The notes below the pieces were generated by a model. The model did not search any database. It saw only the letters and a list, made by a program, of their open reading frames with translations, and was not told where the DNA came from. Positions 8,066 to 26,510 of a stretch of DNA of 54,575 nucleotides are shown here, in pieces. The DNA comes from an uncultured Eubacterium sp. GTDB lineage: Bacteria > Bacillota > Clostridia > Lachnospirales > Lachnospiraceae. Location: assembly GCA_947385775.1 (NCBI GenBank), contig CANDMI010000016.1, positions 1 through 54,575 of the forward strand. The letters are read 5' to 3'. Within the stretch, counting starts at the first letter, position 1. Each line of letters begins with the position of its first letter. The position numbers and the translations under genes were made by a program.

Positions 8066-8932
8066 ATATATTTACTCAGGCTAAGGAAATGGTTCCGTTT
8101 TCTTTGAAATGGAAATTTTGGGAAATGGCTAAGCCAGTGCATTTGCTGATTTATAGGAGGCAGCTTGAGAAATACTATAAATTAATTGATTTAGACCATA
8201 TTCCTTTATTTAGAGATATTGAAATAGAAACATTGAATCGATGCAATGGCAAATGCACGTTTTGCCCGGTGAATGTCAACCAGCCTCAGCGCAAATATGC
8301 GAAAATGACGGAGGAATTATACCGTTCTATAATAGGGCAGCTAAAAGAGATAGGATTCAAAGGCAGGATCAGCCTTTCATCAAATAATGAACCATATCTT
8401 GATAAAAGGATATGTGATTTTTTAAAATATGCAAGGCAGGAGCTGCCGGATGCGTATTTGTGGATGTACACAAATGGAACCTTGTTGAATAAAGAAAATA
8501 TTGACCGCACTATGCCATACATAGACTATCTTGTGGTTGACTGCTATGGGGACGGCGTTCATATAGGAAAGAAGATGGAACGCATAAAGGGCTACATCTA
8601 TAAATCAGGATATGCATGCAAAGTGTTTTTTTCAAAAAGAAAGCAGGATGAGATTTTGTCATCACGGGGGGGGCGTTGCGCCGAATAAATGTGATGTAAA
8701 AGGGCTTAAAGCCGGTTGTTATGGACCTTTTACGAAGATGATCATCCGTCCTGATGGAAAAGTGAGCCTGTGCTGCAATGACCCGTTGGGAAATTATACG
8801 ATGGGAGATGTGGGCAAAGACGGCGTTATTCATGTATGGGAATCGGAGGAATTAAAAAAGATAAGGAGGGAGTTGAAGAAAAATAGCAGGTCTTCTTGCC
8901 GATTGTGCAAAAATTGCGATGTATTTGCTTAA
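8062..8932 (+). CDS. Radical SAM/SPASM protein, frameshifted at a G8 tract (phase-OFF as read)
   Basis: Residues 1 to about 203 are read from ATG 8062 and contain the radical SAM cysteines C61, C65 and C68 (CNGKCTFC). At 8666-8673 a run of eight G shifts the frame and translation stops at 8686-8688. With seven G (or ten) the frame continues as RGGVAPNKC into a cysteine-rich SPASM-like C-terminus ending at 8930-8932, giving about 289 residues. That downstream part reads as a normal SPASM domain with CCND and CRLCKNC. The enzyme would bind an extra Fe-S cluster and perform radical chemistry on a sugar or linked group; the reaction is unknown. The stop lies only 10 bases before the next gene. 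The tract is a probable slipped-strand switch, though a homopolymer sequencing error is possible. Confidence 0.85.
8666..8673 (+). repeat. G8 homopolymer in the first radical SAM gene
   Basis: Eight consecutive G lie between CAC and CGTT. This tract length puts the host gene out of frame; seven G would restore it. It is the only tract of the set not followed by TAT. Confidence 0.9.
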
Positions 8933-8942
8933 ATAAAGGATC

Positions 8943-10094
8943 ATGAAAATTTTTATGATGTGTAACCTGCCGGAAGGTTGTAGGGAGCTGAATGGCGCGG
9001 CTCGAAGGCAGATCGAATTGATAGTGGCTTTATCAAAATTTCATAAAGTGGTATTGTTGGGGGATAAACGGGAGCAGTTTTTAAATAATCACAATATAAT
9101 GCTCATTAAGGCTGATGTGGGAAAAAGAGGAAATCATTCTTATACATACAGCTGGTTTTTGTGTGGAGTTGAGAATAAAGAAAAGATAAAAAGGCAAAAA
9201 CCGGATTTGGCGGTAGCGTGGGGAGCGGAACAAGCGTTGCTTTTTCGGCTTATGGGACAGAAAAATATTGTCACATGCAACAGAGAAGATTCTGTTGAAT
9301 ATTTTAAAATTTATAAAAATGGGATTAGGCATTTTCCAAGATGGCTATGGATATGTATGTTGGACTATCTAACAGTGTTTTTTTCTAAAAAAATCATCGT
9401 GCAATGCGATTACGACTGTGAAAGGATTTTATCAAGGCATAAAGCGTTATTTTATTTAACCGATCATAAGGTGGAAAAACAGATCAATAATATTAATCCT
9501 TCCTGGATGTCTGGAATTCGTAGAAATGAAAATCGTAAAAACAAAATGGCGCATTTTGATCTGGCGCGTCCAAAGCTGCGTATAGCTTTTCTTACAGCGT
9601 TTGATAAGGGAGACATAAACACGGTGCACAGGAAAGGAAACCATATTTTATTTCCGGCGGTATGCAGGCTGATTGACGAAGGATACGATCTGAGACTTAT
9701 TGTTGCGGGAAAAGGCGAATCATTGAATAAATTTAAGGACTATTATAAAAAATATGAGCAGATTGAATTTGTGGGATTTGCCGATAACAAAGAAGTGTAT
9801 GCCAAGGCGGATATTTCGGTTACGCCTTCTCTGATCGATTCCTGTCCCAATGCGCTTCTAGAGGCGATATCCGCAGGCATTCCCGCATATGGGAGCGATG
9901 TGAGTGGAATCAGGGATATTTTAAGATGCAAAGAGTATCTGTTTGATCCAACGCAGGATGGCGTATATACGTTTTTAAAAGAAGTGTTGGACAGCAAAAG
10001 ATATTTACAGGATAGAGAGAAACAAAAGGAGATTTACGACAGATTATCGTTCGATTGGGGATATGAGATGTCGAAAAAGATTATTGGACAATGA
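8943..10094 (+). CDS. Glycosyltransferase family 4 (GT-B fold)
   Basis: This 383-residue protein has a divergent N-terminal half and a well-conserved GT4 C-terminal half. LRLIVAGKGE lies near residue 254, followed by FVGFADNKEVYAKADISVTPS and then SCPNALLEAISAGIPAYGSDVSG, which holds the donor-binding acidic residue region near 305-325. It probably adds one sugar of the repeat unit. It begins 10 bases after the restored radical SAM stop and ends overlapping the Wzy-like gene by ATGA. The donor sugar is unknown. Confidence 0.85.
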   Translation: MKIFMMCNLPEGCRELNGAARRQIELIVALSKFHKVVLLGDKREQFLNNHNIMLIKADVGKRGNHSYTYSWFLCGVENKEKIKRQKPDLAVAWGAEQALLFRLMGQKNIVTCNREDSVEYFKIYKNGIRHFPRWLWICMLDYLTVFFSKKIIVQCDYDCERILSRHKALFYLTDHKVEKQINNINPSWMSGIRRNENRKNKMAHFDLARPKLRIAFLTAFDKGDINTVHRKGNHILFPAVCRLIDEGYDLRLIVAGKGESLNKFKDYYKKYEQIEFVGFADNKEVYAKADISVTPSLIDSCPNALLEAISAGIPAYGSDVSGIRDILRCKEYLFDPTQDGVYTFLKEVLDSKRYLQDREKQKEIYDRLSFDWGYEMSKKIIGQ

Positions 10095-11344
10095 CGTTAA
10101 AAATTAGCAATCGCAGTATTTCACTGTTCACATTTTTTTTATATATGTGCGCACTGTGCGCACATCAGACAGATTCCAGGTTTGATAATTTTTTTATCAG
10201 AGCATCGTTTTTCTTATTTATTTTATCAGGCATGGTTTGTATTATAAATAGGCCAAAGCTTGATTTAAGGATCAGGATGGTGTTTTGGTATGTTTTGTTT
10301 TTTCTGTATAATATAGCGGCTACATTTTGGGCGGTCAATCAAAAAGACGCGTGGACGAGATCGTTTGTTTTTAGCAGCGTTATGATCCTTGGCACATTTA
10401 TTGCGCTTGCAAATACAGCGCGAACAAACAGGGACGTGACCTCATATTTGAAAATGATGTTGTATGCGATCGTATACATGTCTGTTTATGCTTTGCTCAA
10501 AACGCCTGAATTATTAAGCGGGATGTTCCGATTAGGATTTAATATAGGACAGAATCCTAATTTTATGGGAATCTTTACAGCTGTGGGAACGGTCCTTTCG
10601 CTTTATTTTGCAGATTTTAATAAGAAATACTATATTTTGTCTGTTTTTTTATCCATAGTGACGCTTTTTACAGGCTCTAGGACAGCTTTTGGAACGATTG
10701 TCATAGGATATTTTGTCTATATGCTCTGCAATTCGAAAACCCAAAAAAAGATGTTTAAAAATATCGGGATTGTAATCGTTGTGCTTGCCATGTTTTTTAT
10801 CCTTTCTTTTCGGATTGAATTGCTCTATAACATTATCGGCAATCGAATAGAAGCCGCGATAGAGGCGGTGCGGGGAGGATATGGGGATAGCAGCGTTGAT
10901 GTAAGGGAGTTTTTTCGGTCATACGCTATGCGGATGTTTGCCGAAAAGCCTGTATTTGGACATGGGGCGGGAGCTTTCAAATCAACAATGCGTTTGATAA
11001 AGTATACGCTTGTTGCGTACAGCCATTGTAATTATACAGAACTGCTGGCAAATGAAGGGATTTTTGGTTTTGTATTATACTATAGCCTTTCAGTTTTTGT
11101 TTTGCTAAAAGGCGTGAAAGCTTATAAATATAAGAAAAAGGATAAATCCCAAATGGCGGTTTTGATTTCTATTTTAATGGCATTTGTGTTTACCGACTAT
11201 TATGCGGTGACTTATGATTCGATTTTTGTTCAGACGGTGGTAGGGCTTTTGTTTTTATTATTGGTATGTCCGCAGGAAGATCATATAGTTGAAAGGCAGC
11301 GGTATAGAAATGAAGGTATTGTTTATTGGAACAGAGTTTTTTGA
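10091..11344 (+). CDS. wzy: Wzy-like O-antigen/capsule polymerase (integral membrane)
   Basis: The 417-residue protein is very hydrophobic, with roughly ten or more predicted membrane segments. A large external loop at about residues 245-330 contains the family-like FGHGAGAFKSTM stretch, and NPNFMGIF sits near residue 153. Wzy proteins polymerise undecaprenyl-linked repeat units on the outer face of the membrane. The family is recognised by topology more than sequence, so an O-antigen ligase (WaaL-type) assignment cannot be excluded. The Wzx-like flippase at 16355 supports a Wzx/Wzy pathway. The start overlaps the previous stop. Confidence 0.82.
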   Translation: MTLKISNRSISLFTFFLYMCALCAHQTDSRFDNFFIRASFFLFILSGMVCIINRPKLDLRIRMVFWYVLFFLYNIAATFWAVNQKDAWTRSFVFSSVMILGTFIALANTARTNRDVTSYLKMMLYAIVYMSVYALLKTPELLSGMFRLGFNIGQNPNFMGIFTAVGTVLSLYFADFNKKYYILSVFLSIVTLFTGSRTAFGTIVIGYFVYMLCNSKTQKKMFKNIGIVIVVLAMFFILSFRIELLYNIIGNRIEAAIEAVRGGYGDSSVDVREFFRSYAMRMFAEKPVFGHGAGAFKSTMRLIKYTLVAYSHCNYTELLANEGIFGFVLYYSLSVFVLLKGVKAYKYKKKDKSQMAVLISILMAFVFTDYYAVTYDSIFVQTVVGLLFLLLVCPQEDHIVERQRYRNEGIVYWNRVF

Positions 11345-12329
11345 CTATCCAAAGGCAATGGAAGCGGCGATATGTAAACTTGGGCATGAAGTGGTCAGTT
11401 ATGTGTTAAAAGATTGCTCGGACCAATCTTTTATACAGAAAGTGAAGTCAAAGTTATGGTTTATGAAGCATCGGATATCAGAGGAATTATGGTTTCCAGA
11501 AAAACATGTGTGGGAAGAGCAGAGTCGGAAGGTATATGAACTATATCAATCATTTCAGCCGAAACTGGTGATCGGTTTTGCGGCATATATACTTACATCG
11601 GATGTGCTTGAGAAAATGAATGGATGTAAAAAAATACTTTGGATCTATGACGCGATCCATAATTTGTCCAGGATAAAAGAGAATTTGAAGTATTATGATC
11701 AGGTCTATACATTCGAAAAAACGGACATCCCGAAATTAAAAGAGCTTACATCCAATGTTTGTTTTCTTCCAATCTGCGCGGACGGCAGGTATTACTATCC
11801 GCTGGCCCGGGAAAAAGAATATGATCTGTGTTTTATCGGAGCACTTTCGACACAACGCAGGCAGATGATCAGGGATATTAAGAAAAGGTTTCCAGATAAA
11901 AAGATCATAGCTTATGGAAAGTATTTGGGCAGATATGATCTATTTGGCCATTTTGCAAGATGTTTGAACGGCGATAAGGATGTTTTTACAAATCGCAATA
12001 TAGGGCAGAAGGAATCCAATGAGCTATATGCGAAAAGCAAAATATGCCTGAATATACACAAAAAACAAACAAAATATGGCGGAAATATGCGGCTTTTTGA
12101 ATTAATGGCGGCTGGAGCTTTTCAGATTGTAGATGAAAATGAATATATACGAGAAGAATTTGCAGGCTGTCTGGAGACGTATCAGGATTTTAACGAATTA
12201 TGCAGCAAATTAGATTACTATTGGAAAAATGAGGATAAGAGAGAGGCTATCGCAAAAAGAGGGTTTGAAAAGGTGACTGGTCATCATATGTTTATCCATC
12301 GGGTTCGCTTTATTTTTGAAAGGATTTAA
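11310..12329 (+). CDS. CgeB-like glycosyltransferase
   Basis: The protein has about 339 residues and resembles CgeB/Glyco_trans_1_2 proteins. LWIYDAIHNL, LCFIGALSTQRRQ, NIHKKQTKYGGNMRLFELMAAGAFQI and the C-terminal FNELCSKLDYYW pattern are typical of this group of GT-B enzymes. B. subtilis CgeB is involved in spore-surface glycosylation, but relatives are common in capsule loci. The start is taken at ATG 11310, seven codons inside a TTG at 11289. It overlaps the wzy gene by about 35 bases, as is common in this operon. Donor and acceptor are unknown. Confidence 0.8.
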   Translation: MKVLFIGTEFFDYPKAMEAAICKLGHEVVSYVLKDCSDQSFIQKVKSKLWFMKHRISEELWFPEKHVWEEQSRKVYELYQSFQPKLVIGFAAYILTSDVLEKMNGCKKILWIYDAIHNLSRIKENLKYYDQVYTFEKTDIPKLKELTSNVCFLPICADGRYYYPLAREKEYDLCFIGALSTQRRQMIRDIKKRFPDKKIIAYGKYLGRYDLFGHFARCLNGDKDVFTNRNIGQKESNELYAKSKICLNIHKKQTKYGGNMRLFELMAAGAFQIVDENEYIREEFAGCLETYQDFNELCSKLDYYWKNEDKREAIAKRGFEKVTGHHMFIHRVRFIFERI

Positions 12330-12332
12330 AAA

Positions 12333-12913
12333 TTGAAGGAGAAAATAAAATCTGTTTATTTTGCTTTGCAATATGTGATCCGTTTTGCATTACAGCGGTC
12401 TTGGAGATTTGGGCATGTTGGAATAAGAAGCGATATCAAAAAGGCGATGCGGATTGTTGGAGGAAAACATATTCATATTGGCAAAGAAGTTTTTATTATG
12501 GACGGGCTAAGGATGGAAGCGGTGGATGATTGGGGGGGTATTCCTATTTACCGAAAATAAACATCGGGGACAAGGTTCAGATAGGGCAAAACTGCCATAT
12601 TACCTGCGCTGGAAGTGTCCGGATTGGCATGGGGTGCTGCATTATGCCAAATGTGCTTATAACCGATATAGAGCACATTTATATGTGTGATAAAACCCTT
12701 GGGGAAACAGGCATTGAAGTAGGGGAAGTTACGATAGGAGAATATGCCGTCATTGGCGCAGGCGCAAAAATTTTAGGACACAGAAAAATAAAAATTGGAA
12801 AAAATGCAGTTGTTGGCGCGAATGCAGTCGTTATGGAGGACGTACCGGATAACGCTATTGTTGCGGGTATGCCTGCTAAGATGATTCGTTCCAGGGAGGC
12901 TGGATGTGAATGA
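12333..12913 (+). CDS. Hexapeptide-repeat acetyltransferase, frameshifted at a G7 tract (phase-OFF as read)
   Basis: This is a left-handed beta-helix acetyltransferase related to the next gene. From TTG 12333 translation runs to a run of seven G at 12532-12538 and stops at 12558-12560 after 75 residues. With eight G the frame continues as WGGYSYLPKINIGD through hexapeptide repeats (VQIGQNCHI, VTIGEYAVIGAGAKI, IKIGKNAVVGANAVV) to 12913, about 193 residues. The restored junction lines up with YGGQKFEPLIEIGD in the neighbouring paralogue, which supports one gene and not two. It would O- or N-acetylate a sugar. ATG starts are missing near the N-terminus, so TTG is assumed. The restored stop overlaps the next gene's start. 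Confidence 0.85.
12532..12538 (+). repeat. G7 homopolymer in the first acetyltransferase gene
   Basis: Seven consecutive G lie between T and TATTC. Eight G are needed for a full-length product. The flanking bases and encoded W-G-G-Y-S (in the eight-G form) are the same as in the methyltransferase tract at 23046-23053. Confidence 0.9.
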
Positions 12914-13553
12914 GATATTTTTAAAATGGAAAGAAATAGCGGGACAGGAAGACGGGATTCATAAAATCAAAGAAATATTGTTTTGGCGCTTGGGGGGGGT
13001 ATGGAACAGGCTTAAATATGGCAGTAAGTTTAAGAAATTTGGGACGGCGACGCAGATTATAAAGCCGGATAGGATGTTTGGAACAAAATATGTGTCATTG
13101 GGAAAAGGGGTATCTATTCTTCATCATATAAGACTTGAGGGGATCAGCAGATATGGAGGGCAAAAATTTGAGCCATTGATAGAAATTGGGGATAATACTT
13201 CTATAGGGCAGAATTTCCATATTGTTTCCAATGGAGAGTTAAGGATTGGAAAATCGGTTACGATATCCGGAAATGTTTTTATTTCAACTGCTGCGCATGA
13301 TTTTCGGGCGGTTGGAGTTGGGGTATTGGAGCAAAAGCTTACAACAGATAAGGTTTTGATCGGTGACTGTTCATTTATTGGATATGGGGCTGTTATCCAG
13401 CCCGGGGTTATTTTAGGGAAACGGTGTATTGTCGGTTCCAATGCGGTTGTTTTAGCGGGAAACTATAAGGATTATTCCGTATTGGCGGGCATCCCTGCTA
13501 AGGTCGTAAGAAGGTATGATCCAAATACCGGGGTGTGGGAAAGGACGATTTAA
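12906..13553 (+). CDS. Hexapeptide-repeat acetyltransferase with an in-frame G8 tract (phase-ON)
   Basis: This 215-residue left-handed beta-helix acyltransferase has repeats such as IEIGDNTSIGQNFHI and SFIGYGAVIQPGVIL, and the trimeric-enzyme tail VVLAGNYKDYSVLAGIPAKVVRRY. The catalytic histidine is probably in AAHDF. The start is GTG 12906, with GGGAGG at about 12893-12898. A run of eight G at 12992-12999 lies early in the gene and is in frame, encoding L-G-G-V-W. Gain or loss of one G would truncate the protein near residue 35. It is a paralogue of the preceding gene, so the two may acetylate different positions or sugars. Confidence 0.87.
   Translation: MNEIFLKWKEIAGQEDGIHKIKEILFWRLGGVWNRLKYGSKFKKFGTATQIIKPDRMFGTKYVSLGKGVSILHHIRLEGISRYGGQKFEPLIEIGDNTSIGQNFHIVSNGELRIGKSVTISGNVFISTAAHDFRAVGVGVLEQKLTTDKVLIGDCSFIGYGAVIQPGVILGKRCIVGSNAVVLAGNYKDYSVLAGIPAKVVRRYDPNTGVWERTI
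12992..12999 (+). repeat. G8 homopolymer in the second acetyltransferase gene
   Basis: Eight consecutive G lie between T and TATGG, in frame at this length. It lies about 90 bases after the start codon, so slippage would give an early null. Confidence 0.9.
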
Positions 13554-13558
13554 GATCG

Positions 13559-14422: not shown

Positions 14423-14464
14423 CAAAAAGAAAGATTTGATGACTGCTTAGGAGAGTGGATTGTT

Positions 14465-16336: not shown

Positions 16337-16354
16337 TTTATGAATTAAAAAGAA

Positions 16355-17737
16355 ATGGGAAAAAATAAAACAATCTTTTTTAATGTGCTAAGCGTTGTCC
16401 TGGTTAAAGGAATCACTTTTTTTACGGCTCCGATTTTTTCTAGGCTTTTAGGGGCGCACAATTATGGAATTGTTTCTGTTTATCTGTCATGGGTTGGAGT
16501 CATTACGATTGTGTTTCCTTTATGCGTGACTTCTACGATCGGGATAGCGACGAAGGAATTTCCAGCGCATAAGCAGCATGAATTTCAATCCAGCGCGCTT
16601 GTTCTTGGGATCAGCAGCTATCTTGCATTTTCCGCTATAGCGTTAATAATGATCGACTGGGTCAGGAAGATAACCCACATGGATAAGACTCTCATCTATA
16701 TAGCTATCGTTGCCGGTTTTTTTGGGTTTATCATAAATTTTGCAAATTCCAGGTATGTCTTTGAGTTTAAAGCAAATATTAATTTTTTGATTTCGGTATC
16801 GTCTTTGCTTGTTTCCATAGCGCTTTGCGTGGGACTGATATGGAACATGGATGCAGAAATCAATTATTTTGGGCGAATACTTGGAGGCGTGATATCGAAC
16901 GCGTTCTTTGGGCTGATACTGGCGGCTGTTATTTTAAAAGATGGGAAAATGTTTTATAACGCCAAGTATTGGAGGTTTTGCATTCCGATCGCGGTTCCAG
17001 TCATATTTCATGCATTATCCAATACGGCGCTAAGCCAGTCAGACCGGATCATGATACAAAGGATGCTGGATAACAGTTCGGCAGGAATATACAGTCTGGC
17101 ATATAATTTTACAGCGATACTAACCACGCTCTACAGCGCACTTAATGACAGCTGGATTCCTTTTTACTATAAATATTTAAGCGATGAAGACACGGGAAAG
17201 GTTATACAGCATGGGGATCATTACGTTGAATTGTATACGGTGGTCGCCGGGGGATTTTTGATGCTGTTCCCAGAGGTTTATCGGGTATTTGCAGGCAGGG
17301 AATATTGGGATGGGATAGATTACATACCGATGATTGTCATTGGCTGTTATGCAATGTTTTTATACAGCCTGTCCGTTAATTTCGAATTTTATTGTAAAAA
17401 GACAAAGTATATGGCTTTTATCACAGCTTCAGCGGCTGGGATCAATATTTTGCTGAATTATCTTTTGATATCAAAGTTGGGGGCATGGGGCGCGGCATTG
17501 GCAACGGCTGTTTCGTATGGATATGAGGTTGTGGTCCACTACATATTTGCGCGCTATTTCTGTGGACGGGAATTTCCGTTTCAGGCGAGATTTTATATCA
17601 AACATTTGCTGCATATGACGGCTATCTTGGCGTTGTTTTATATATTTCAGGCAGTTTGGATCGTTAGATGGAGTATAGGCGCATGGATGGGCGTGTATAT
17701 AATCTGTAAAATAATAAGGAGAAGAACTATATTTTGA
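16355..17737 (+). CDS. wzx: Wzx-type polysaccharide flippase (MOP superfamily)
   Basis: This 460-residue integral membrane protein has about 12-14 membrane segments. The N-terminal half (TFFTAPIFSRLLGAHNYGIVSVYLSW) and the middle SQSDRIMIQRMLDNSSAGIYSLAYNF match the polysaccharide-transporter branch of the MOP superfamily. It would flip the undecaprenyl-linked repeat unit across the membrane for Wzy. It starts 18 bases after asnB, and its stop overlaps the TTG start of the next gene. Confidence 0.9.
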   Translation: MGKNKTIFFNVLSVVLVKGITFFTAPIFSRLLGAHNYGIVSVYLSWVGVITIVFPLCVTSTIGIATKEFPAHKQHEFQSSALVLGISSYLAFSAIALIMIDWVRKITHMDKTLIYIAIVAGFFGFIINFANSRYVFEFKANINFLISVSSLLVSIALCVGLIWNMDAEINYFGRILGGVISNAFFGLILAAVILKDGKMFYNAKYWRFCIPIAVPVIFHALSNTALSQSDRIMIQRMLDNSSAGIYSLAYNFTAILTTLYSALNDSWIPFYYKYLSDEDTGKVIQHGDHYVELYTVVAGGFLMLFPEVYRVFAGREYWDGIDYIPMIVIGCYAMFLYSLSVNFEFYCKKTKYMAFITASAAGINILLNYLLISKLGAWGAALATAVSYGYEVVVHYIFARYFCGREFPFQARFYIKHLLHMTAILALFYIFQAVWIVRWSIGAWMGVYIICKIIRRRTIF

Positions 17738-19023
17738 AATCAGAAAGTGATCTTCGTATGAGTCAAAAGACAATGGAAAAAAGACTGAATGAGATAAGCT
17801 TTATTGGATGCGGCAATGTTTGCGTAGGTGACGTGCTGCATTTTCCGATAAAGTCAGCTAACCATTTTGACCATGGAGTGAAAAAGTTTTTTTTATCATT
17901 ATATTGCATCTTGAAATATGCTTTATTAAAGAGATATCGCTTCACTGTGCATGGAAATGGAAATACGATTTTTTTATTTTCGGATTCATATTCTAACAGG
18001 GTCGACCATTTAAAATCATTTAAAAAAGTAAGTTCCATTGTAGAAAATCGGATTGACGTAACAGCTGAAAAAAAAGAAATTGCATTTTCTGATCTTTACA
18101 CGGTTGGAATTTGCTTTCTATGGTTTTTACAAATGAGAACGATAGTGAAAAAGAAATCAGACAGGATTTATTTGATAGCGGAGTTGTATCATGCATTTGT
18201 TGACGACAGGCATATTAGGAGAATGATAAAAAAAATGAAGCTCGATCCATTGGCGATGGTTTCTTTTTGCGATGTGCATTCGATAGACAGTTTTATCACC
18301 CAAAGGATGGGTCAGCGTAATGTTCGAACAGTGACATTGCAGCATGGGGCTGTAATGGACACATGGGGGGTTAGGCATTTTAAAAGTGATTTTATGCTGG
18401 CGATAAGCGATTTTACGATAGACGCCGCCAAAAATGCGAAGGCGGATAAAATTGATAAAATGATTCCGGTAGGGTTGATGGCGTATTCGGATCACAAAAA
18501 AGACATTCCAAAGCCTAAGGGCTTTGAGATTGAAACAATAGGCGTTTTTTTGGATGATGAGCGTATGGGAATGCGTGAAGTCAATGAAAAAATGATAAAG
18601 ACAGTGCAGCAGTATGCCATTAAGAATAAAAAGAAGATTTTGTACCGGCCCCATCCGTTTACGGATGTAAAAAGTTATGGGAAGCTGGTTGGCGACAATA
18701 TCAGCGGAATGGATCAAGATCTTGGTGATTTTCTAAAAGGGATAGATCTTGGGATCGTGCATGACTCTACGGTCCTGCTTGAAGGGTTTTACGCGTGGAA
18801 GCCTATGGTGTTATTTGATTTTAAAAGTCTGTTAAAACAGTATGTGGATCAGGGCGTTGAAATCCTTAGCTTTAAGGATGCGGGAGGCTTGGAGAATGTA
18901 ATCTGCCAGATACAGATGGGGAAGCTGGACCATGTCATGAAAAAAGAAAGAAAATATTTTTGCACAGATGGGCCGGCATATGAAAGCTATCGAAGAGCCT
19001 TTTTAAGAGTGGGGGTAAAATGA
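17734..19023 (+). CDS. Unassigned GT-B-like protein, candidate nonulosonate (sialyl-type) transferase
   Basis: I do not recognise this 429-residue protein securely. Its C-terminal half looks like a GT-B transferase of the capsule type: TLQHGAVMDTWG (201-212), ILYRPHPFTD (302-311) and IVHDSTVLLEG (341-351). An HP motif followed by a Ser/Thr-rich site recalls bacterial sialyl- and polysialyltransferases and CDP-glycerol phosphotransferases. It stands directly before the CMP-sugar synthetase/PseG fusion and NeuB, and overlaps the former by ATGA, so use of a CMP-nonulosonate donor is a reasonable inference. The start is TTG 17734 with AAGGAGA at 17716-17722; ATG 17758 is the alternative. It holds a short G6 run at 18365-18370. 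Confidence 0.6.
   Translation: MKSESDLRMSQKTMEKRLNEISFIGCGNVCVGDVLHFPIKSANHFDHGVKKFFLSLYCILKYALLKRYRFTVHGNGNTIFLFSDSYSNRVDHLKSFKKVSSIVENRIDVTAEKKEIAFSDLYTVGICFLWFLQMRTIVKKKSDRIYLIAELYHAFVDDRHIRRMIKKMKLDPLAMVSFCDVHSIDSFITQRMGQRNVRTVTLQHGAVMDTWGVRHFKSDFMLAISDFTIDAAKNAKADKIDKMIPVGLMAYSDHKKDIPKPKGFEIETIGVFLDDERMGMREVNEKMIKTVQQYAIKNKKKILYRPHPFTDVKSYGKLVGDNISGMDQDLGDFLKGIDLGIVHDSTVLLEGFYAWKPMVLFDFKSLLKQYVDQGVEILSFKDAGGLENVICQIQMGKLDHVMKKERKYFCTDGPAYESYRRAFLRVGVK
18365..18370 (+). repeat. G6 run in the GT-B-like gene
   Basis: Six consecutive G lie between CAT and TTAGG, in frame. It is shorter than the other tracts and so probably less mutable. It is listed because its left flank (ACAT) is the same as at 26375. 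Confidence 0.5.
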
Positions 19024-20621
19024 AAATATTGGCTGTCATACCAGCGCGCGCTGGTTCAAAGGGGATTCCGAACAAAAATATAAGGATGGTATGCGGGCGG
19101 CCGCTTATCTATTATGCGATCAACAACGCGTTAGGTTCACGCTTCATAACCGATATTGTTGTGACGACGGATTCGGCGGAAGTGAAAATAATTGCTTCGC
19201 AAATGGGAGTCGCTTGCAGGTGGCGCGATGAAAAATTGTGCGGTGACGATGTGGCTTTGGACGCTGTTATATATGACGCGGCGCCAAAAGATATAAAATG
19301 GGATTATATTGTGACGCTTCAGCCTACTTCGCCCACACTGAAAGTGGAAACATTAGATAAGGGTATTTCCTATGCAATTGAAAACAGGCTGGACACGCTG
19401 ATTTCTGCGGTAAACCGCCCTCATCTTTCGTGGATGGATGAGGATGGAAGAAAAATCCCGGCTTATAAGGAGAGACGAAACAGGCAATTCCTTCCATCTC
19501 AATATATGGAAACAGGAGCGTTTGTGATCACGGATGCGTCTATCTTTTCTGAAAGGTCAAGGATCGGAGGGCGCATTGACATTTTTGAAATGCCCGAGGA
19601 TGAATCGCTGGATATTGATACATTTGAAGACTTAATGTGCGCGGATATCATACTTCGCAGAGAAAAAGTGGCAATATACGTCAACGGAAATAAGCAAAGG
19701 GGGATCGGGCATATATATCGGGCGCTTGAGCTTGCGGATGAATTTTTTGTAAAACCGGATATCTATTTTGACATAAATCAGACGGACAGTGAGTTGTTCG
19801 GTGGCACAACTCATAACCTAATACCGGTAAACGGCATCGCGGAACTGTACTCATGCTGTAAAAAGAAAGAGTACACAATTTTTATTAATGACATTCTCAA
19901 TACATCGATCGACTACATGATAGGGCTTAAAACGGTGGCGCCCCGCGCTAAGATCATTAATTTTGAGGACGAGGGAGAAGGATGCGTCAAAGCGGACATA
20001 GTGATAAATGCTTTGCTGTCTAATACAGATTTGCCGAACGTTTATGTTGGGGAAAAATATTATATGGCAAATAAGCTCTTCCTTTTGTACAATCCGATAA
20101 AAGTAAAGGATAAGGTGAAAAAAGCGTTTGTCTGCTTTGGAGGCGCGGACCCTAGGAATTACACCGACAGGATATTGACTATGATTACCAAGCCGGAATA
20201 TCAGGATTATGATTTTGTAATCGCCGTAGGCAGGGCAAAAGGCAATGTGGAGGAATTGCTTTTATATAATCGCTATGACAATATAGAAGTCATATACGAT
20301 GTGAATAACATGCCGCAACTGATGTCAGGCTGCGATGTGGCAATCTCATCCAGAGGACGCACCGCATACGAGCTTGCCATGCTTGGAATACCGACAATCG
20401 TCCTTTCGGAAAATGAAAGGGAAAAAAACCATGCGTTTGCATGCAATGAAAATGGGTTCAGTTACATTGGGATGGACCCGTCGGATGAAGTGATTGAAAA
20501 TAATGTTCGTATGTATTTACGTTTATCAAAGGAGAGCAGGCAAAAGTTTCAGGACCGTTTGCTTGAGCATAACCTTAAAGATGGGCGAAAACGTGTCATG
20601 GGATTGATCAATAGCATTTAA
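19020..20621 (+). CDS. CMP-nonulosonate synthetase (PseF/NeuA-like) fused to a PseG-like domain
   Basis: The protein has 533 residues and two domains. Residues 1 to about 213 form a cytidylyltransferase with the CMP-sugar synthetase motif IPARAGSKGIPNKN (7-20) and TLQPTSP (99-105). From about 217 to the end there is a PseG-like GT-B-fold domain with the GxGHxxR motif (GIGHIYR, 228-234) and SSRGRTAYELAMLGIP near 443-458. PseG removes UDP from the 6-deoxy diamino sugar before condensation, and PseF activates the final nonulosonic acid with CMP. The fusion joins steps on either side of NeuB in one polypeptide. It lies 14 bases before neuB. Pseudaminic or legionaminic acid is suggested, but the sugar is not settled. 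Confidence 0.85.
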   Translation: MKILAVIPARAGSKGIPNKNIRMVCGRPLIYYAINNALGSRFITDIVVTTDSAEVKIIASQMGVACRWRDEKLCGDDVALDAVIYDAAPKDIKWDYIVTLQPTSPTLKVETLDKGISYAIENRLDTLISAVNRPHLSWMDEDGRKIPAYKERRNRQFLPSQYMETGAFVITDASIFSERSRIGGRIDIFEMPEDESLDIDTFEDLMCADIILRREKVAIYVNGNKQRGIGHIYRALELADEFFVKPDIYFDINQTDSELFGGTTHNLIPVNGIAELYSCCKKKEYTIFINDILNTSIDYMIGLKTVAPRAKIINFEDEGEGCVKADIVINALLSNTDLPNVYVGEKYYMANKLFLLYNPIKVKDKVKKAFVCFGGADPRNYTDRILTMITKPEYQDYDFVIAVGRAKGNVEELLLYNRYDNIEVIYDVNNMPQLMSGCDVAISSRGRTAYELAMLGIPTIVLSENEREKNHAFACNENGFSYIGMDPSDEVIENNVRMYLRLSKESRQKFQDRLLEHNLKDGRKRVMGLINSI

Positions 20622-20635
20622 GGAGGAGGGCGATT

Positions 20636-21673
20636 TTGAGTAAACCATATGTGATCGCGGAAATTGGAGTTAACTTTTACGATACGGCGCGTGTGCTGGA
20701 TATTGTGCCCTTAGAGGCGGCGCTGCTTTATATCGATAAAGCAGCGGAAGCGGGAATTGACTGTGTGAAATTCCAATCTTATAAAGCGGGAATGTTAGCG
20801 TCTAAAAATTCACCCGCGTATTGGGACGTGACAAAAGAGCCGACGAAGACGCAGTATGAATTATTTTTAAAATATGACCATTTTGGTGAGAAGGAGTATC
20901 GGGAGCTTTCGAATCATGCCCATGCGAAGGGGATGGATTTCACATCCACCCCGTTTGATTACGTATCCGCAGATTATTTGGAAGACTTGGTGGATTTTTA
21001 TAAGATTTCATCCTCTGATCTGACAAACATTCCGTTTATAAAGCATATTGGGGCGAAAGGAAAGAAAACTCTTTTGTCGACAGGGGCGGCGAGTTTGTCC
21101 GAGGTGGACGAGGCGGTAAGGGCGCTAAAGGATTCTGGATGTGAGAACATCACGCTTTTACATTGTGTGCTGTCGTATCCTACCGCTCCAAAGGACGCAA
21201 ATTTGAGGATGATTGAAACGTTGAAGCGGGTTTTTCCAGAATGCACGGTGGGATTTAGTGACCATGTGGCTCCGGATGAGGCGATGTTGACGCTTGCGGT
21301 GGCATATATGCTGGGGGCGGAGGTGATTGAGAAGCATTTTACGCTTGATAAGACATTGGAAGGAAATGACCATTATCATGCCAGCGATCCTAAGGACTTT
21401 AAAAAAGCGATCGCAAATTTTCAGTGGATCGACGCTGTTTTAGGCTCTGGGGAAAAGACGGTTTTGGATTGTGAGAAAACATCAAGGCGTGAAGCGAGAA
21501 GGTCTTTGGTCTTAACAAGGGATATGGAGGCCGGGGAGGTGGTGACGCGCCAAAGCGTTATGGCAAAGAGGCCGGGTACGGGCATTTCGCCGAAGTTTAC
21601 AGATATCGTGGTGGGGAGACGGGTGAAAGAGAGTCTGAAAAAGGATACGATACTGACTTGGGAAATGATATGA
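20636..21673 (+). CDS. neuB: Nonulosonic acid synthase (NeuB/PseI/LegI family)
   Basis: This 345-residue enzyme condenses a hexosamine-derived sugar with phosphoenolpyruvate to give a nine-carbon acid. The TIM-barrel starts at YVIAEIGVNF and includes CVKFQSYKA, FTSTPFD, KISSSDLTNIPFI and VGFSDH. KHFTLDK and GNDHYHASDP carry metal/PEP-site residues. The C-terminal SAF/antifreeze-like domain runs from about 280 (SLVLTRDMEAGEVV). The GNDHYH variant differs from the GPDH-type sequence of classical sialate synthases and points toward a legionaminate/pseudaminate-like product, but this is not decisive. AGGAGG lies just upstream, and it follows the CMP-synthetase fusion by 14 bases. Confidence 0.92.
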   Translation: MSKPYVIAEIGVNFYDTARVLDIVPLEAALLYIDKAAEAGIDCVKFQSYKAGMLASKNSPAYWDVTKEPTKTQYELFLKYDHFGEKEYRELSNHAHAKGMDFTSTPFDYVSADYLEDLVDFYKISSSDLTNIPFIKHIGAKGKKTLLSTGAASLSEVDEAVRALKDSGCENITLLHCVLSYPTAPKDANLRMIETLKRVFPECTVGFSDHVAPDEAMLTLAVAYMLGAEVIEKHFTLDKTLEGNDHYHASDPKDFKKAIANFQWIDAVLGSGEKTVLDCEKTSRREARRSLVLTRDMEAGEVVTRQSVMAKRPGTGISPKFTDIVVGRRVKESLKKDTILTWEMI

Positions 21674-21687
21674 TAGCTGGAGGGAAC

Positions 21688-23004
21688 ATGGAAGAGGGGC
21701 GCAGGATGTATGGCCTTTTAAAAAAGATATTTCCGATATACAGGCATCTGACGGGCAATGGGGTTAGGCAGACGCTTTTTATTTTAAACGCGTTTTTGAA
21801 AAAGGAATGCGCGCCTTTGATCTCCATAAAGGAAATCCCATCGGGAGAATCTGTTTTTGATTGGACGGTTCCAAAGGAATGGCGGATTGAAGAAGGCTAT
21901 ATTGAAGATGAAAAAGGAAACCGCATTGTTGATATGAGGGACAATAACCTCCATATAGTAGCGTATTCCGTGCCGGTTGATGAATGGATGGAGCTATCGT
22001 CTTTGAAAGAACACATTTATACGCAAAAGGACCAGCCGCATGTAATCCCATACGTAACGTCTTATTATAGTGAAAGATGGGGATTTTGCATGAGCGATGA
22101 AAAAAAGGATGCCCTTTTAGAAGGGAGATATCATGCCGTCATTAAAAGCGAGCTGTTCGACGGATGCATGACCTATGGTGAGGCGGTAGTTCCAGGAGAG
22201 TGCGAAGAAGAGGTCTTTTTTTCGACTTATATCTGCCATCCTTCCATGGCGAATAATGAGTGCTCTGGACCGGCTTTGGCGGCAGAGCTTGTCAGGTTTG
22301 TATCCCGTTTAGCGAAGCGCAGATACACTTACCGGTTTGTTTTTATTCCGGAAACGATAGGTTCTATTGCCTATCTTGCGCATAAGGGGTGGCTTTCGCA
22401 TTTAAAGGGCAAGATGAAGTGCGGGTTTAACTTAACCTGCGTAGGGGATGACCGCAGCTATTCCATGGTGGAAACAAGATATGCGGATACGTTTGCCGAT
22501 AAGGTTCTTTCCAATGTCTTAAAATATCAAACAAAAGGCTGCTACAACAGATATTCCTTTCTGGAAAGAGGGTCTGATGAGCGTCAGTATTGCGCTCCTG
22601 GAGTGGACCTTCCTGTTGTCGGGTTTAGCCGTTCGCTTTTTCATAAATACCCGGAATACCATACATCGGCGGATAATCTGGATATCGTATGTCCGTCCGG
22701 CCTGCAAGGAGCCTTTGATGCAATAAAGGAAGCGATCTGCGGCATCGAGCATAATTATTATTACAAAACGAAAATCTTGTGTGAGCCGCAGCTTGGGAAA
22801 AGAGGGCTGTATCCGACATTTAGTCAAAAGCATAGTTCGGATGCGGTTTTCGATATGAGCAATTTTATTGCTTATTCAGACGGGAAAAACGATCTGTTTG
22901 ACATAAGCAATATCACGGGCGCGCCTGTATCCGTATTATATGGGATAGCTGAAATTTTGGAAAAGGAAGGGATTGTTGAAAAACATGCAAGCAGATGCGA
23001 ATGA
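21688..23004 (+). CDS. DUF4910/DUF2172-type aminopeptidase-like metalloenzyme
   Basis: The protein has about 438 residues and matches the DUF2172/DUF4910 M28-like peptidase family that recurs in surface-polysaccharide loci. Probable metal ligands are seen in STYICHPSMANNECSGP, in PETIGSIAY, and in the C-terminal HKYPEYHTSADN. Typical relatives are about 420-440 residues, so it looks complete. The start is ATG 21688 with GGAGGG at 21679-21684; an earlier TTG at 21658 lies inside neuB. What it hydrolyses is unknown. Its place between neuB and a methyltransferase suggests removal of an acyl or aminoacyl group from a sugar precursor, which is inference. Confidence 0.75.
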   Translation: MEEGRRMYGLLKKIFPIYRHLTGNGVRQTLFILNAFLKKECAPLISIKEIPSGESVFDWTVPKEWRIEEGYIEDEKGNRIVDMRDNNLHIVAYSVPVDEWMELSSLKEHIYTQKDQPHVIPYVTSYYSERWGFCMSDEKKDALLEGRYHAVIKSELFDGCMTYGEAVVPGECEEEVFFSTYICHPSMANNECSGPALAAELVRFVSRLAKRRYTYRFVFIPETIGSIAYLAHKGWLSHLKGKMKCGFNLTCVGDDRSYSMVETRYADTFADKVLSNVLKYQTKGCYNRYSFLERGSDERQYCAPGVDLPVVGFSRSLFHKYPEYHTSADNLDIVCPSGLQGAFDAIKEAICGIEHNYYYKTKILCEPQLGKRGLYPTFSQKHSSDAVFDMSNFIAYSDGKNDLFDISNITGAPVSVLYGIAEILEKEGIVEKHASRCE

Positions 23005-23848
23005 TAAGATGTATCGAAAGGTCGTTGGATGTCCGTGGTGTGCATGGGGGGGGTATTCTGTCTTGTATCATGCAACAGACGACTGTGAGGCGTTAAAATG
23101 TGACAGGTGCGGCATTGTGTATGCTTCTAAAGTTCTGTCGCGATATGGCATCGAGCATTATTGGCCGACGTATGAATCGATGGTCCACATGAAGGACGAA
23201 AAGCTGTCGCGGCAGAGAAAAGCGATGTATCAGATAGAGTATGATTTTATAAAAAGGTATATGGCGCCCCAGTCTGCGGTATTGGATGTCGGATGTTCCA
23301 ACGGGGATTTTTTGGATTATTTTAAAAAGGATGGGCATATTTGCGAGGGCGTAGAGTTTGGAAAAGATGCGTTTGAACAAGCGGCGAAAAGATATCGGGT
23401 ATATTATGGGGAACTGTCAAAGGCGGATATAAAAAACCAATATGACTTGATCGTGCTTAGAGGGGTGGTCCAGTATCTGCTCCATCCAAAGGATGATCTG
23501 AAAAAAGCGATATCCCTGCTAAAACAGGGAGGATTGCTTTACATATCCAGTTCTCCAAACGCGGATTCTGTCTGTCACAGGATATTTGGAAATAAGGCGA
23601 GATTGACTGTGGACCCAACAAATTATTATATGTTCACAGAGAAAATATTGTCTGATTTTTTGTCTTTTCATGGCATGCGTTTATTTGCGGATAAGGATTT
23701 TTATCTGAATACGCCATATGAAGATATTGAAAACGACATATGCTCTGTAGCCAAGGCGTTTAAACTAAGAAAACAGGATAAAGAGATAACATGGACAGCG
23801 CCTGCGTTTTTTGACAGTATGCTGTCGCTTGTGTATAAGAAGATTTAA
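22985..23848 (+). CDS. SAM-dependent methyltransferase with zinc ribbon and an in-frame G8 tract (phase-ON)
   Basis: Read from ATG 22985, the protein has about 287 residues. An N-terminal zinc ribbon has C16, C19, C39 and C42 (CPWC and CDRC). A class I methyltransferase domain follows, with SAM motif I in VLDVGCSNGD and a later LLKQGGLLYIS strand. Such proteins resemble NDP-sugar or C-methyltransferases. A run of eight G at 23046-23053 encodes W21-G-G between the zinc-ribbon knuckles and is in frame. A one-base change would stop translation early. The start is uncertain: TTG codons at 22973 and 22976 lie just upstream of the ATG and all overlap the previous gene's end. Confidence 0.82.
   Translation: MQADANDKMYRKVVGCPWCAWGGYSVLYHATDDCEALKCDRCGIVYASKVLSRYGIEHYWPTYESMVHMKDEKLSRQRKAMYQIEYDFIKRYMAPQSAVLDVGCSNGDFLDYFKKDGHICEGVEFGKDAFEQAAKRYRVYYGELSKADIKNQYDLIVLRGVVQYLLHPKDDLKKAISLLKQGGLLYISSSPNADSVCHRIFGNKARLTVDPTNYYMFTEKILSDFLSFHGMRLFADKDFYLNTPYEDIENDICSVAKAFKLRKQDKEITWTAPAFFDSMLSLVYKKI
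23046..23053 (+). repeat. G8 homopolymer in the methyltransferase gene
   Basis: Eight consecutive G lie between CAT and TATTC, in frame at this length. It is only about 60 bases into the gene. Confidence 0.9.
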
Positions 23849-23862
23849 AGGAGTGTCATCGA

Positions 23863-25668
23863 ATGGATATAACCAAAAGGCTGGAGGGCTGCTTATATAA
23901 TAGCTGCCTGTTTCATGAGCGCGTCAAAGCGTCAAAAGATTTAGATGAATATTTTCAAAAACTTGGGAAAAGGCTTTTGGAATATGAGAAGCTGGCGCTT
24001 GTATGCGATGCAAAGGTAGCCAACAGGTTTATATTAAAAACAGGCATAGGAGAGCGGGTCAGCGTGATCTTGGAAGCGGGAAATGGAGCTTTTCACGCAA
24101 GCAGATGGCTGACCCAGGTGTATGGGATAGACGTAGCTCCATATGAGGAAGCATGCAGGCATAAGGATTGCTTGTTCGTGGCGTTAGATGACAAAAATGG
24201 GAAAGAGCTTTTTAATTCCGTGTATTTTCATGCAAAAAAGATCCTGAATGTGCCAGACGACATAAAGGATAAGGGCGAACCCCTTTTTCTCTCTTATTCA
24301 GAATGGATGGCTGCATACAATACTCCCTTTGAGAAGATCATGCTTGATAGGAGAAAGTATGAGGCAGAGACAGACATAAGGAAGAAAAAAAAGTATCTTA
24401 TAAATTTGATATATGACCTGTTGCAGATAAAAGATTTCCATTCAAGCTATCAATATATCGACCGCTACATGGAAAGCGGCTTTGATCAAAACGGTGAGAT
24501 GGAGAAGTTCCGGAATGGGATTGACCGATTGTTAGCAGACATCTCGTACGCTTTGAAACAGCGAGATGGAAGAAACGATATTATCATGATTTGGAACGAT
24601 GGGTTACGTTACGACGAACTTAAAGAAATGCCCTATTTAGGAAAAGAGTTTGCGAATGACTCCTTTTGCATGGATCATGCGTTTTCCACAGTTTATGACT
24701 CTGAAGGCTCCCTTGGCTCCATGTTTCAAAAGAAATACCAGGTAGATGATTTTCATGTAAATGAGGGGGAAAGCTACAGCAGTATAAATTCTCCGGTTAT
24801 AAAATTGATAGAAAGCCATGGCTACAGGTTTAAAATGATTTTCCATTTTTATTTGGCGGACAGGGAGCACACGGATTTAATTGATTCTTTTGTGGCGGGC
24901 AGTGAAAAAATGTGGCTGTGCATACAAAATCTGCTGGACGCTAAGGAGCCGATGTTTTTCTTGTTACAAGAAAACACAGAAACGCATAATCCGTATCACA
25001 GCCCATATTTGGATAAGGACTATTATTTTATCAATAACTGCACTCCAAGCCAATATCAAAACCAGATAAGGATAAGCAGGTCATATTGGGATAGCCAGAT
25101 AAAATTTTATATGCGTTTATTGGATTATGATAATATGAAAATCGTGATGAGCGACCATGGCAAGCCGATGACGCTCCAGGACCTGTGCGTATTGGATTGG
25201 GGCTATTTATCAGATTATCTTCACATCGTATTGATGGTAAATGGGAAAAACATAAAACCCGGTAATGAGAAACGGTTATTTAGCGCGTATTACTTTAAAG
25301 AGCTGTTGGAGTATATTTTTGAGCCGTCCAAGGAGGGCTTAGAGAAATGTTTTCCACAGGAATATGTAAAGATCCAGTCGATCGACCGATATGATCCATT
25401 CGACATTGAACGAAAATTAAAGGCTGGCGCGGATAAACGGCATCTTATGTCTTATCGTGGCATTCGGACATTAGATGATATGTATGTAAGGATCGCAAAT
25501 GGGGAAGAGCGTTATTTTAAACTGCCGGATGAACGGACGAACCGGATATGCGATGATAAATATAAGGATAGGATAGAGGAACTAAAAGAACAGAATGCAG
25601 GGAATTTTCTTGATATTGAAACTATTCCATTTTTCCATGCATCCTTACAGCTATATAAAGACAGATAG
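23863..25668 (+). CDS. Alkaline-phosphatase-superfamily protein (sulfatase/phosphotransferase-like)
   Basis: The protein has 601 residues. The C-terminal half from about 245 looks like the alkaline phosphatase/sulfatase superfamily: IIMIWNDGLRYDEL carries the metal-binding acidic residue (WNDGLRYDEL, near 248-257), NTETHNPYHSPY carries central histidines, and IVMSDHGKPM carries the final Asp-His metal pair. The N-terminal 230 residues do not match anything I recognise. Members transfer or remove phosphate-linked groups such as phosphoethanolamine or glycerol phosphate. Together with the TagD-like gene at 26514 it may add a phospho-substituent to the glycan (inference). No signal peptide or membrane segment is evident, so it probably works inside the cell. 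Confidence 0.65.
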   Translation: MDITKRLEGCLYNSCLFHERVKASKDLDEYFQKLGKRLLEYEKLALVCDAKVANRFILKTGIGERVSVILEAGNGAFHASRWLTQVYGIDVAPYEEACRHKDCLFVALDDKNGKELFNSVYFHAKKILNVPDDIKDKGEPLFLSYSEWMAAYNTPFEKIMLDRRKYEAETDIRKKKKYLINLIYDLLQIKDFHSSYQYIDRYMESGFDQNGEMEKFRNGIDRLLADISYALKQRDGRNDIIMIWNDGLRYDELKEMPYLGKEFANDSFCMDHAFSTVYDSEGSLGSMFQKKYQVDDFHVNEGESYSSINSPVIKLIESHGYRFKMIFHFYLADREHTDLIDSFVAGSEKMWLCIQNLLDAKEPMFFLLQENTETHNPYHSPYLDKDYYFINNCTPSQYQNQIRISRSYWDSQIKFYMRLLDYDNMKIVMSDHGKPMTLQDLCVLDWGYLSDYLHIVLMVNGKNIKPGNEKRLFSAYYFKELLEYIFEPSKEGLEKCFPQEYVKIQSIDRYDPFDIERKLKAGADKRHLMSYRGIRTLDDMYVRIANGEERYFKLPDERTNRICDDKYKDRIEELKEQNAGNFLDIETIPFFHASLQLYKDR

Positions 25669-25690
25669 TAACAGGAATGGAGCGGAAACG

Positions 25691-26510
25691 ATGTCAAGCC
25701 ATATCAAGGAAGCGGTTTATTTGGCGTTCAAAAACCGGATTGATGTGCATACGCTGATCATGGTAGTGGGACAGGCATGCAGCCTGCGGTGCCGTGACTG
25801 CGCAAATTTATGCCCTTATATGCCAAAATCAGTGGCTTCCTATGACAGTGATAAGGTGATCACGGAATTAAAGGATGTTCTTGAAAACATCGACTCATTA
25901 AAAAAGTTTCAGATTCAGGGCGGAGAGCCATTTTTGTATAAAGATATCGATAAAGTGCTCTCATATGTGAAAAATGAGAAAAAAATTTCATATTGTATAA
26001 TAGCGACCAATGGAACGATCATTCCAAGGGAGCAAACGCTTCGGATACTGGAAGATAATAAATTTGATGTAAGGATCAGCCATTACGGCGTTTCAAACGA
26101 TAGAGCGGCGGAATTATCTGAAATATTAAAAACGCATAACATCCGTTATCGAATCTTTACATTTGACTCTTTTCAAGATAAATGGGCAAATACCGGAAAA
26201 GAGATTAAGAGGGACGAGGATACAAGACGTACAAAAAGAAAGTTTAAAAATTGTGCGTTTCGATATTGTCTGACATTAGAAAATGGATATTTGGCGTGGT
26301 GTTCAAGAGCGATAAACGCGCCTTTGGTGCAAAAGTTCAAACCCATGAAAAATGATTGCTTTAAAATTGAACATGGGGGGGGTATCAAAGAAAAAGCTTG
26401 GATGGTGGCTGGTCAGGCATAGATATATGGAAGCCTGTAGATATTGCAATGGCACGGATCATGTGGAGTTTGTAACTCCTGCTATCCAGTTGGAGGAAGT
26501 GAGAAATTAG
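25691..26510 (+). CDS. Radical SAM protein, frameshifted at a G8 tract (phase-OFF as read)
   Basis: Read from ATG 25691, the protein has the radical SAM cysteines C30, C34 and C37 (CSLRCRDC), QIQGGEPFLYKD as the SAM-binding glycine-rich motif, and further cysteines near the C-terminus. A run of eight G at 26375-26382 shifts the frame, and translation stops at 26420-26422 after a foreign tail. With seven G the frame continues through MEACRYCNG to a stop at 26508-26510, about 272 residues. That stop lies three bases before the next start codon, as expected for a tightly packed operon. It may modify a sugar by radical chemistry; the reaction is unknown. It is only distantly like the first radical SAM protein. 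Confidence 0.85.
26375..26382 (+). repeat. G8 homopolymer in the second radical SAM gene
   Basis: Eight consecutive G lie between CAT and TATC. Seven G would restore the C-terminus, which holds a CxxC pair. Confidence 0.9.

Follow-up and report, generated by a model that had tools for sequence, protein, structure and literature searches.

Why should five genes of one polysaccharide locus each carry a run of seven or eight guanines, and why should three of the five be out of frame at that run? The locus lies in a stretch of 54,575 nucleotides (hereafter the window) from an uncultured Eubacterium sp. of the Lachnospiraceae (assembly GCA_947385775.1, contig CANDMI010000016.1). A preliminary description of this DNA had suggested multi-locus phase variation, and this is the explanation that the evidence now supports best: reading frames break at G7 and G8, run lengths in sister species peak at G9, the guanines favor the coding strand, glycan genes are enriched among the carriers, and one tract differs in length between orthologues. 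On these grounds we consider it very likely that the five tracts are translational poly-G contingency (phase-variable) loci of the Campylobacter type, forming a multi-locus set in a gut Clostridia host. The genome as a whole carries about one hundred such tracts, and the habit is shared by the genus, which may be that of Eubacterium plexicaudatum ASF492 and whose members are presumably commensals.

In the model that we propose, strand slippage during replication would add or remove one base of a G run, and a frame-breaking length would lead to an early stop or wrong-frame translation and hence to loss of the modifying enzyme, until a later slip restored the frame and the enzyme returned. Independent switching within one polysaccharide locus would allow a clone to present many surface glycan variants, which phages, host antibodies or mucus might then face. 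The 32 glycoforms first suggested for the five tracts can only be an upper bound, because the action of all five enzymes on one glycan is presumed.

Five guanine tracts in glycan-modifying genes

All five tracts lie on the plus strand at the coordinates and lengths originally given, with no further G run of at least seven in the window, where C runs reach six at most and there are two runs each of G6 and C6. Tract 1 (G8, 8666..8673) breaks the frame of a radical SAM/SPASM gene. A domain search with the separate frame pieces places it at the junction from Radical_SAM to SPASM of one protein split over two frames, the upstream part (8062..8688, plus strand) matching Radical_SAM in its own frame (PF04055, E 2.8e-10, profile positions 2-101) and the downstream part (8675..8932, plus strand) holding a complete SPASM domain in another (PF13186, E 1.1e-14, profile positions 1-67). 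Tract 2 (G7, 12532..12538) likewise breaks the frame of a hexapeptide acyltransferase gene, whose upstream open frame of 67 codons (12330..12530, plus strand) has no Pfam match and whose downstream part (12530..12913, plus strand) matches PF00132 (E 1.3e-12). Tract 5 (G8, 26375..26382), the third that is out of frame, falls in another radical SAM gene, close to its C-terminal end; the open frame as assembled (25595..26422, plus strand) matches PF04055 (E 3.6e-9), and a likely continuation of 41 codons in another frame (26385..26510, plus strand), recognized by eye, has no Pfam match.

The two remaining genes are open across their tracts. Tract 3 (G8, 12992..12999) is in frame at about codon 29 of a hexapeptide acyltransferase (12906..13553, plus strand; PF00132, E 1.3e-10), and tract 4 (G8, 23046..23053) is in frame in the start region of a methyltransferase (22973..23848, plus strand; PF13489, E 1.8e-12), roughly 25 codons into the longest open frame. 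The five genes encode two radical SAM proteins, two hexapeptide acyltransferases and one methyltransferase, and the count of three frames broken and two intact holds, as does the TAT directly after four of the five tracts. The W-G-G-Y-S context said to be shared by two tracts is found literally at tract 4, but at tract 2 only when read across two frames. One of the two G6 runs (18365..18370, plus strand), with T on each side, lies in frame within 17734-19023 and falls below the length class of the five tracts.

Run length and reading frame across the genome

The genome that carries the window (G000; 3.98 Mb, 152 contigs) holds about 102 runs of seven to nine G, namely about 77 G7, 24 G8 and one G9 by subtraction from overlapping matches. 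This count leaves out two artefact-like runs on contig C59 and includes runs outside clear genes. Our detailed figures come from stretches picked for G7 or G8, which cover 57 G7, 24 G8 and the G9, with about 20 of the runs lying outside the stretches read. Run counts fall five- to sixfold per added base from G4 (1919) through G5 (394) to G6 (64) and then level off at 57 G7 and 24 G8, a levelling that was counted in stretches selected for such runs. The tracts are also clustered, with 26 in the 154 kb of contigs C16, C28, C53 and C54, which were picked for tract richness, against three in the 389 kb of C1, C3 and C4. The G strand is the more open strand in 162 of 176 cases, and the clear tracts of G000 occupy all three codon phases (19, 18 and 12 of 49).

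The genes concerned are rich in glycan-modifying functions. Among 77 tract genes or gene pieces of G000 the leading Pfam families are methyltransferases (5, plus 3 FkbM), radical SAM (5), GNAT (4) and hexapeptide (4), and among 90 from sister species they are methyltransferases (17), Acyl_transf_3 (7), hexapeptide (4) and FkbM (4). The control consisted of the first 77 out of a draw of 90 tract-free open reading frames from those stretches of G000; in it, GNAT occurred twice and the methyltransferase, radical SAM and hexapeptide families fewer than two times each. Taken with the clustering, these tallies indicate that the tracts are over-represented and concentrated in surface-structure genes, although the window alone shows no such over-representation.

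Reading frames were scored by one fixed rule, under which 35 of 84 G000 tracts were unclear and left uncounted. The proportion out of frame rises with run length, from 20/271 at G5 and 5/36 at G6 to 11/35 at G7 (P 1.6e-4 against G5) and 9/14 at G8 (P 4.7e-7 against G5). Both frame states are thus well represented, with out-of-frame alleles at 3 of 5 tracts in the window, 20 of 49 clear G7 and G8 tracts in G000, and 36 of 93 clear tracts in sister species. The sister sample derives from 10 of 11 genomes, mostly G010, G003, G005, G008, G006 and G002, among twelve sister species genomes; G004, in which 22% of G4 runs were already out of frame, was excluded, and the tract counts do not include the contig-end loci (L081-L088, L101-L105, L111) or the loci retrieved by homology (L121-L144). 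In the pooled sisters, 51 of 57 G9 tracts keep the frame, as do only 6 of 36 at lengths 7, 8 and 10-12 (P 9e-13). In-frame tracts mostly have one length per lineage, which is G7 in G000 (24 of 29, the other five being G8) and G9 in the sisters.

Such breakage might mean no more than decay, with the broken genes being pseudogenes of a mosaic locus in which G runs are simply the weakest points. The absence of the whole locus from sister species and the breakage of three genes in five would fit this. However, the frame translations of the five genes revealed no second break, and in 20 clear out-of-frame genes of G000 the part downstream of the tract has one frame open over a median length of 197.5 codons (13.5 in the next best frame), with a median of 175 codons in 20 sister genes, so these are not old pseudogenes. 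Since the sisters also keep their G9 tracts so largely in frame, we regard decay as very improbable.

It could also be that the out-of-frame alleles are sequencing or assembly errors at homopolymers and that the genes are ordinary. Poly-G artefacts of the two-color type do occur in these assemblies, as long impure G runs at the start of a G000 contig (C59:27-51) and at the end of G007 contig C98 (L111), and a study of Bifidobacterium breve warns that reference genomes may misstate the length of G tracts (PMC9187656). Of the T8 runs of G000, 5 of 18 break the frame, against 17% for T4. However, A8 runs in the same assembly are broken no more often than A4 runs (7/49 against 409/2778), and errors would not produce a coding-strand bias, clustering, a bias in gene class, a length peak at nine or flanking motifs. 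We therefore judge this explanation very unlikely, if slightly less so than decay. The G004 assembly (6 contigs) probably does carry indel errors: besides its high G4 figure, its mutL is split over frames and the open frame at its mutS match spans no more than 193 codons.

Several points weigh against phase variation in the window and should be set beside the evidence for it. GGGGGGG matches in the window number 9, with 9.94 expected from dinucleotide shuffles, and shuffling of synonymous codons yields on average 2.73 runs of at least seven, with five or more in 247 of 2000 shuffles. The clear-frame rule has a background of 7% (G5) to 28% (T8) out of frame, and, given the artefacts at contig ends, some tracts may have an incorrect consensus length. 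The window has G8 at each of its two in-frame tracts, but the in-frame tracts of G000 at large are mostly G7. None of the 12 sister genomes has a close counterpart of the complete window cluster, the best match being about 650 bases at 68% identity. Lastly, G7 stands at the bottom of the tract range accepted for Campylobacter in the PhasomeIt survey (PMC6321876), and is borderline by that standard.

The count of tracts in the window is thus unexceptional and the argument rests on context. T-G7 occurs four times where 2.52 are expected, and in 5000-28100 the five runs of at least seven are a marginal excess over the 0.95-2.22 of Markov models (P 0.01-0.06), with a clearer one for the four runs of at least eight (0.23-0.63 expected, P 0.01 or less). 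What is locally unusual is therefore tract length together with frame breakage, rather than tract number.

Length dialects, flanks and origin of the tracts

Runs of at least eight G are present in all 12 sister genomes, and exact G9 runs number 79, 73, 58, 43, 35, 28, 22, 17, 12, 12, 7 and 1 per genome, against a single one in G000. Sister tracts are mostly G8-G11. In the stretches read, the best-sampled sister genomes show a dip at lengths 6-8 and a peak at 9 or 9-10, as in G008, with 156 runs of five, 9 of six, 2 of seven, 1 of eight and 20 of nine. Of 250 genomes of the family, 137 contain exact G9 and most have 0-5 such runs, with G9-rich exceptions in G173, G134 (23) and G057 (20); the habit therefore extends beyond the genus but is patchy in the family. 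G173, a genome of 1.6 Mb that is 68% complete and belongs to a different genus of the family, contains 105 exact G9 runs. Poly-G switching of this kind is known mainly from pathogens, and to that extent the earlier remark that such a set would be unusual in commensal Clostridia is fair, but within this genus such tracts are the rule.

By their lengths and borders the tracts fall into two lineage dialects. One, T-G7/8-T, is seen in G000 and in G001, where T stands on both sides of all 10 tracts found in about 40 kb (five of the ten having been selected for the pattern). The other, G9-TA, is that of the better-sampled other sisters, with mostly G9 in G002, G003, G008 and G010 and G9-10 in G005 and G006, commonly followed by TA; G173 and G134, from two other genera of the family, show the same form. 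In G000 the flanks shift abruptly at G7: T precedes 27/64 G6 runs but 45/57 G7 and 19/24 G8 runs, and follows 15/64 but 39/57 and 17/24, respectively. Compared with G5, T before the tract rises from 124/391 to 64/81 (P 3.5e-15) and TA after it from 15/391 to 35/81 (P 4e-19), with T on both sides in 51 of 81.

Most sister stretches, including those of G010, G005, G003 and G008, were chosen by GGGGGGGTAT places, and the TAT fraction among sisters is selected for that reason. When TAT is excluded, TA still follows 35/73 tracts as against 21/568, and runs of 8-12 G in the two other genera are followed by TA in 15/25 (G173; 4/69 at G5) and 7/9 (G134; 8/79 at G5). Whole-genome G9 lists give a weaker T-after signal (19/35 in G005, 36/79 in G008, 4/12 in G004). 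The flank is polar with respect to strand and independent of reading frame. A codon-level cause can be dismissed, as the frequency of TA after sister tracts is 0.66, 0.75 and 0.78 in the three phases, figures that come from stretches partly selected for TAT. The same flanks occur at some tracts of Campylobacter jejuni, where Cj1318 reads T-G8-TAT and Cj1335 T-G9-TAT, and by our reading the ten poly-G loci of the ST-883 Table 1 have T before in 7/10 and T after in 6/10 (PMC7173850). Part of the flank may therefore be common to poly-G loci.

A flank that is polar on the coding strand and indifferent to codon phase would also be compatible with an action on RNA, in which transcriptional or ribosomal slippage yields full-length protein from out-of-frame genes and the DNA length need not vary. 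Programmed frameshifting, however, would favor a fixed out-of-frame state, whereas here the commonest length of each dialect is mostly in frame (G7 in 24/35, G9 in 51/57) and out-of-frame alleles occur at several lengths. We consider RNA slippage very improbable, and return to switching at the DNA level. Here the borders allow a more tentative idea, which we think possible but rather doubtful: that the tract and its polar boundary form a tuned switch element, in which a border-sensing factor or a property of the DNA sets both length and rate, and that this set-point has shifted lineage-wide. The factor sensing the border of the G run and TA might be a protein of replication or repair, and the DNA property might be the weakness of the TpA step. 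The set-point would then have changed as a whole between lineages, moving all tracts together.

Comparison of homologues indicates, at the level of sequence, that the tracts arise in place. One orthologous tract is G10 in G005 and G8 in G003, in a loop that is presumably Walker-A-like and that bears an interrupted run in a paralogue; a second, compared in the same two species, is G9 in both. A glycine motif, which we take to be that of methyltransferases, carries G8 in G000, G9 in G010 and G9 in G008 and no tract in two other homologues, and a G000 relative of the tract 1 gene (L024, 41-44% identity) has no tract at the same place. Insertion as mobile elements was considered and rejected, since between close relatives (pairs with about 68-80% protein identity) the bases are substituted in place with the length unchanged, or the partner has an interrupted run. 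In 36 tract genes with an ungapped tractless homologue (gapped placements having been dropped), TA stands at the border in 17 tract alleles and in 5 homologues, a comparison that is weak because most homologues are distant (about 25-45%).

Recombination or shuffling at poly-G was likewise rejected. A shared upstream sequence leading into different genes was seen only in G007, an assembly that also has poly-G artefacts, where all seven copies (L081, L082, L101-L105) lie at contig ends and consist of a common leader of about 44 bases, then G7-G9, then seven different sequences. The core of this leader was found in no other of the 13 genomes, and these ends are probably assembly chimeras at poly-G. 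Near contig ends, G8-G10-TAT runs are followed immediately by a repeat that G010 and G002 share at about 79% identity (L053, L084 and L085 in G010; L088 in G002), and relatives of this repeat occur with no adjoining G run (L036, L060, L066).

The mechanism proposed here is of a known kind; what is new is the host group, the scale, the one length per lineage and the polar flank. In the Campylobacter survey, strains have 5-81 phase-variable genes (PMC6321876), to be compared with roughly 102 candidate runs in G000. This gut Clostridia genus thus seems to hold a poly-G set of Campylobacter size or larger, and differs in its host and in the mostly single in-frame length of each dialect. The two dialects and the flank offer a handle on what sets the length of contingency tracts. 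B. breve UCC2003 is also a gut commensal, in which slippage was measured in culture and in mice at an intragenic G tract; two frames are joined or separated depending on its length. That system comprises two tracts in two pilus loci, whereas here there are about one hundred, many in glycan-decorating enzymes (PMC9187656). The frameshifting homopolymers in coding genes described by Orsi et al. (2010) are similar in principle but are poly-A/T tracts near gene starts, unlike the poly-G at varied gene positions seen here, where poly-A is broken no more than background (PMC2831843). Among the titles listed by a literature search that took in few subscription papers, none dealt with poly-G phase variation in Lachnospiraceae; PMC6437147, which contains the relevant terms, appears to treat toxins and Campylobacter.

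Mismatch repair and the surrounding locus

Neither mutS nor mutL was found in G000 by profile hidden Markov models, a copy in an assembly gap being possible, while both are present in all 12 sister genomes, with broken frames in G004. The gene order in G010 is an HI0933-like FAD gene, an FAD-dependent gene, mutS, mutL and miaA, and miaA also follows mutS and mutL in G003 (miaA, radC and mreB are presumptive labels of ours). In G000, the HI0933-like gene (C25, L009:12645-13898) and miaA (C44, within L023:4787-9973) both lie inside contigs with no mutS or mutL beside them, so the mutS-mutL block is gone from that place; instead, a nucleotidyltransferase/substrate-binding pair stands before miaA, and glycan-type genes with a tract lie farther upstream. 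Such a loss fits a mutator background in the G000 species, and no shift in poly-A run length that might signal it was evident by eye in G000. As the cause of G7 in place of G9 it is rejected: G001 has the same T-G7/8-T dialect together with both genes, so repair loss does not set tract length.

The locus around the five tracts opens with a LoaP-like antiterminator (695..1354, plus strand; NF033641, 82.6 bits, under the cut-off of 125). Also on the plus strand are an initiating sugar transferase (Bac_transf, 2821..3618; PF02397, E 1.3e-54), a polysaccharide flippase-type protein (16355..17737; PF01943, E 1.8e-21), a cytidylyltransferase fused to a PseG-like hydrolase (19020..20621; PseF and PseG matches under their cut-offs) and a NeuB-family nonulosonic acid synthase (20636..21673; PF03102, E 7.2e-74). 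Together with a DegT-type aminotransferase (LegC/PseC-like, under cut-offs), glycosyltransferases, DUF4910 and asparagine-synthase-like proteins, these genes point to a surface polysaccharide locus with a nonulosonic acid.

The region from 5000 to 28100 is AT-rich, with a GC content of 40.3% against 45.1% for the window. Positions 5000-29000 gave one phage match of 44 bases and no plasmid match; the NeuB query found no relative in viral contigs, and the methyltransferase query none in genome contigs. Away from the tract cluster, the minus strand carries an open frame of 1418 codons at 47580-51836.

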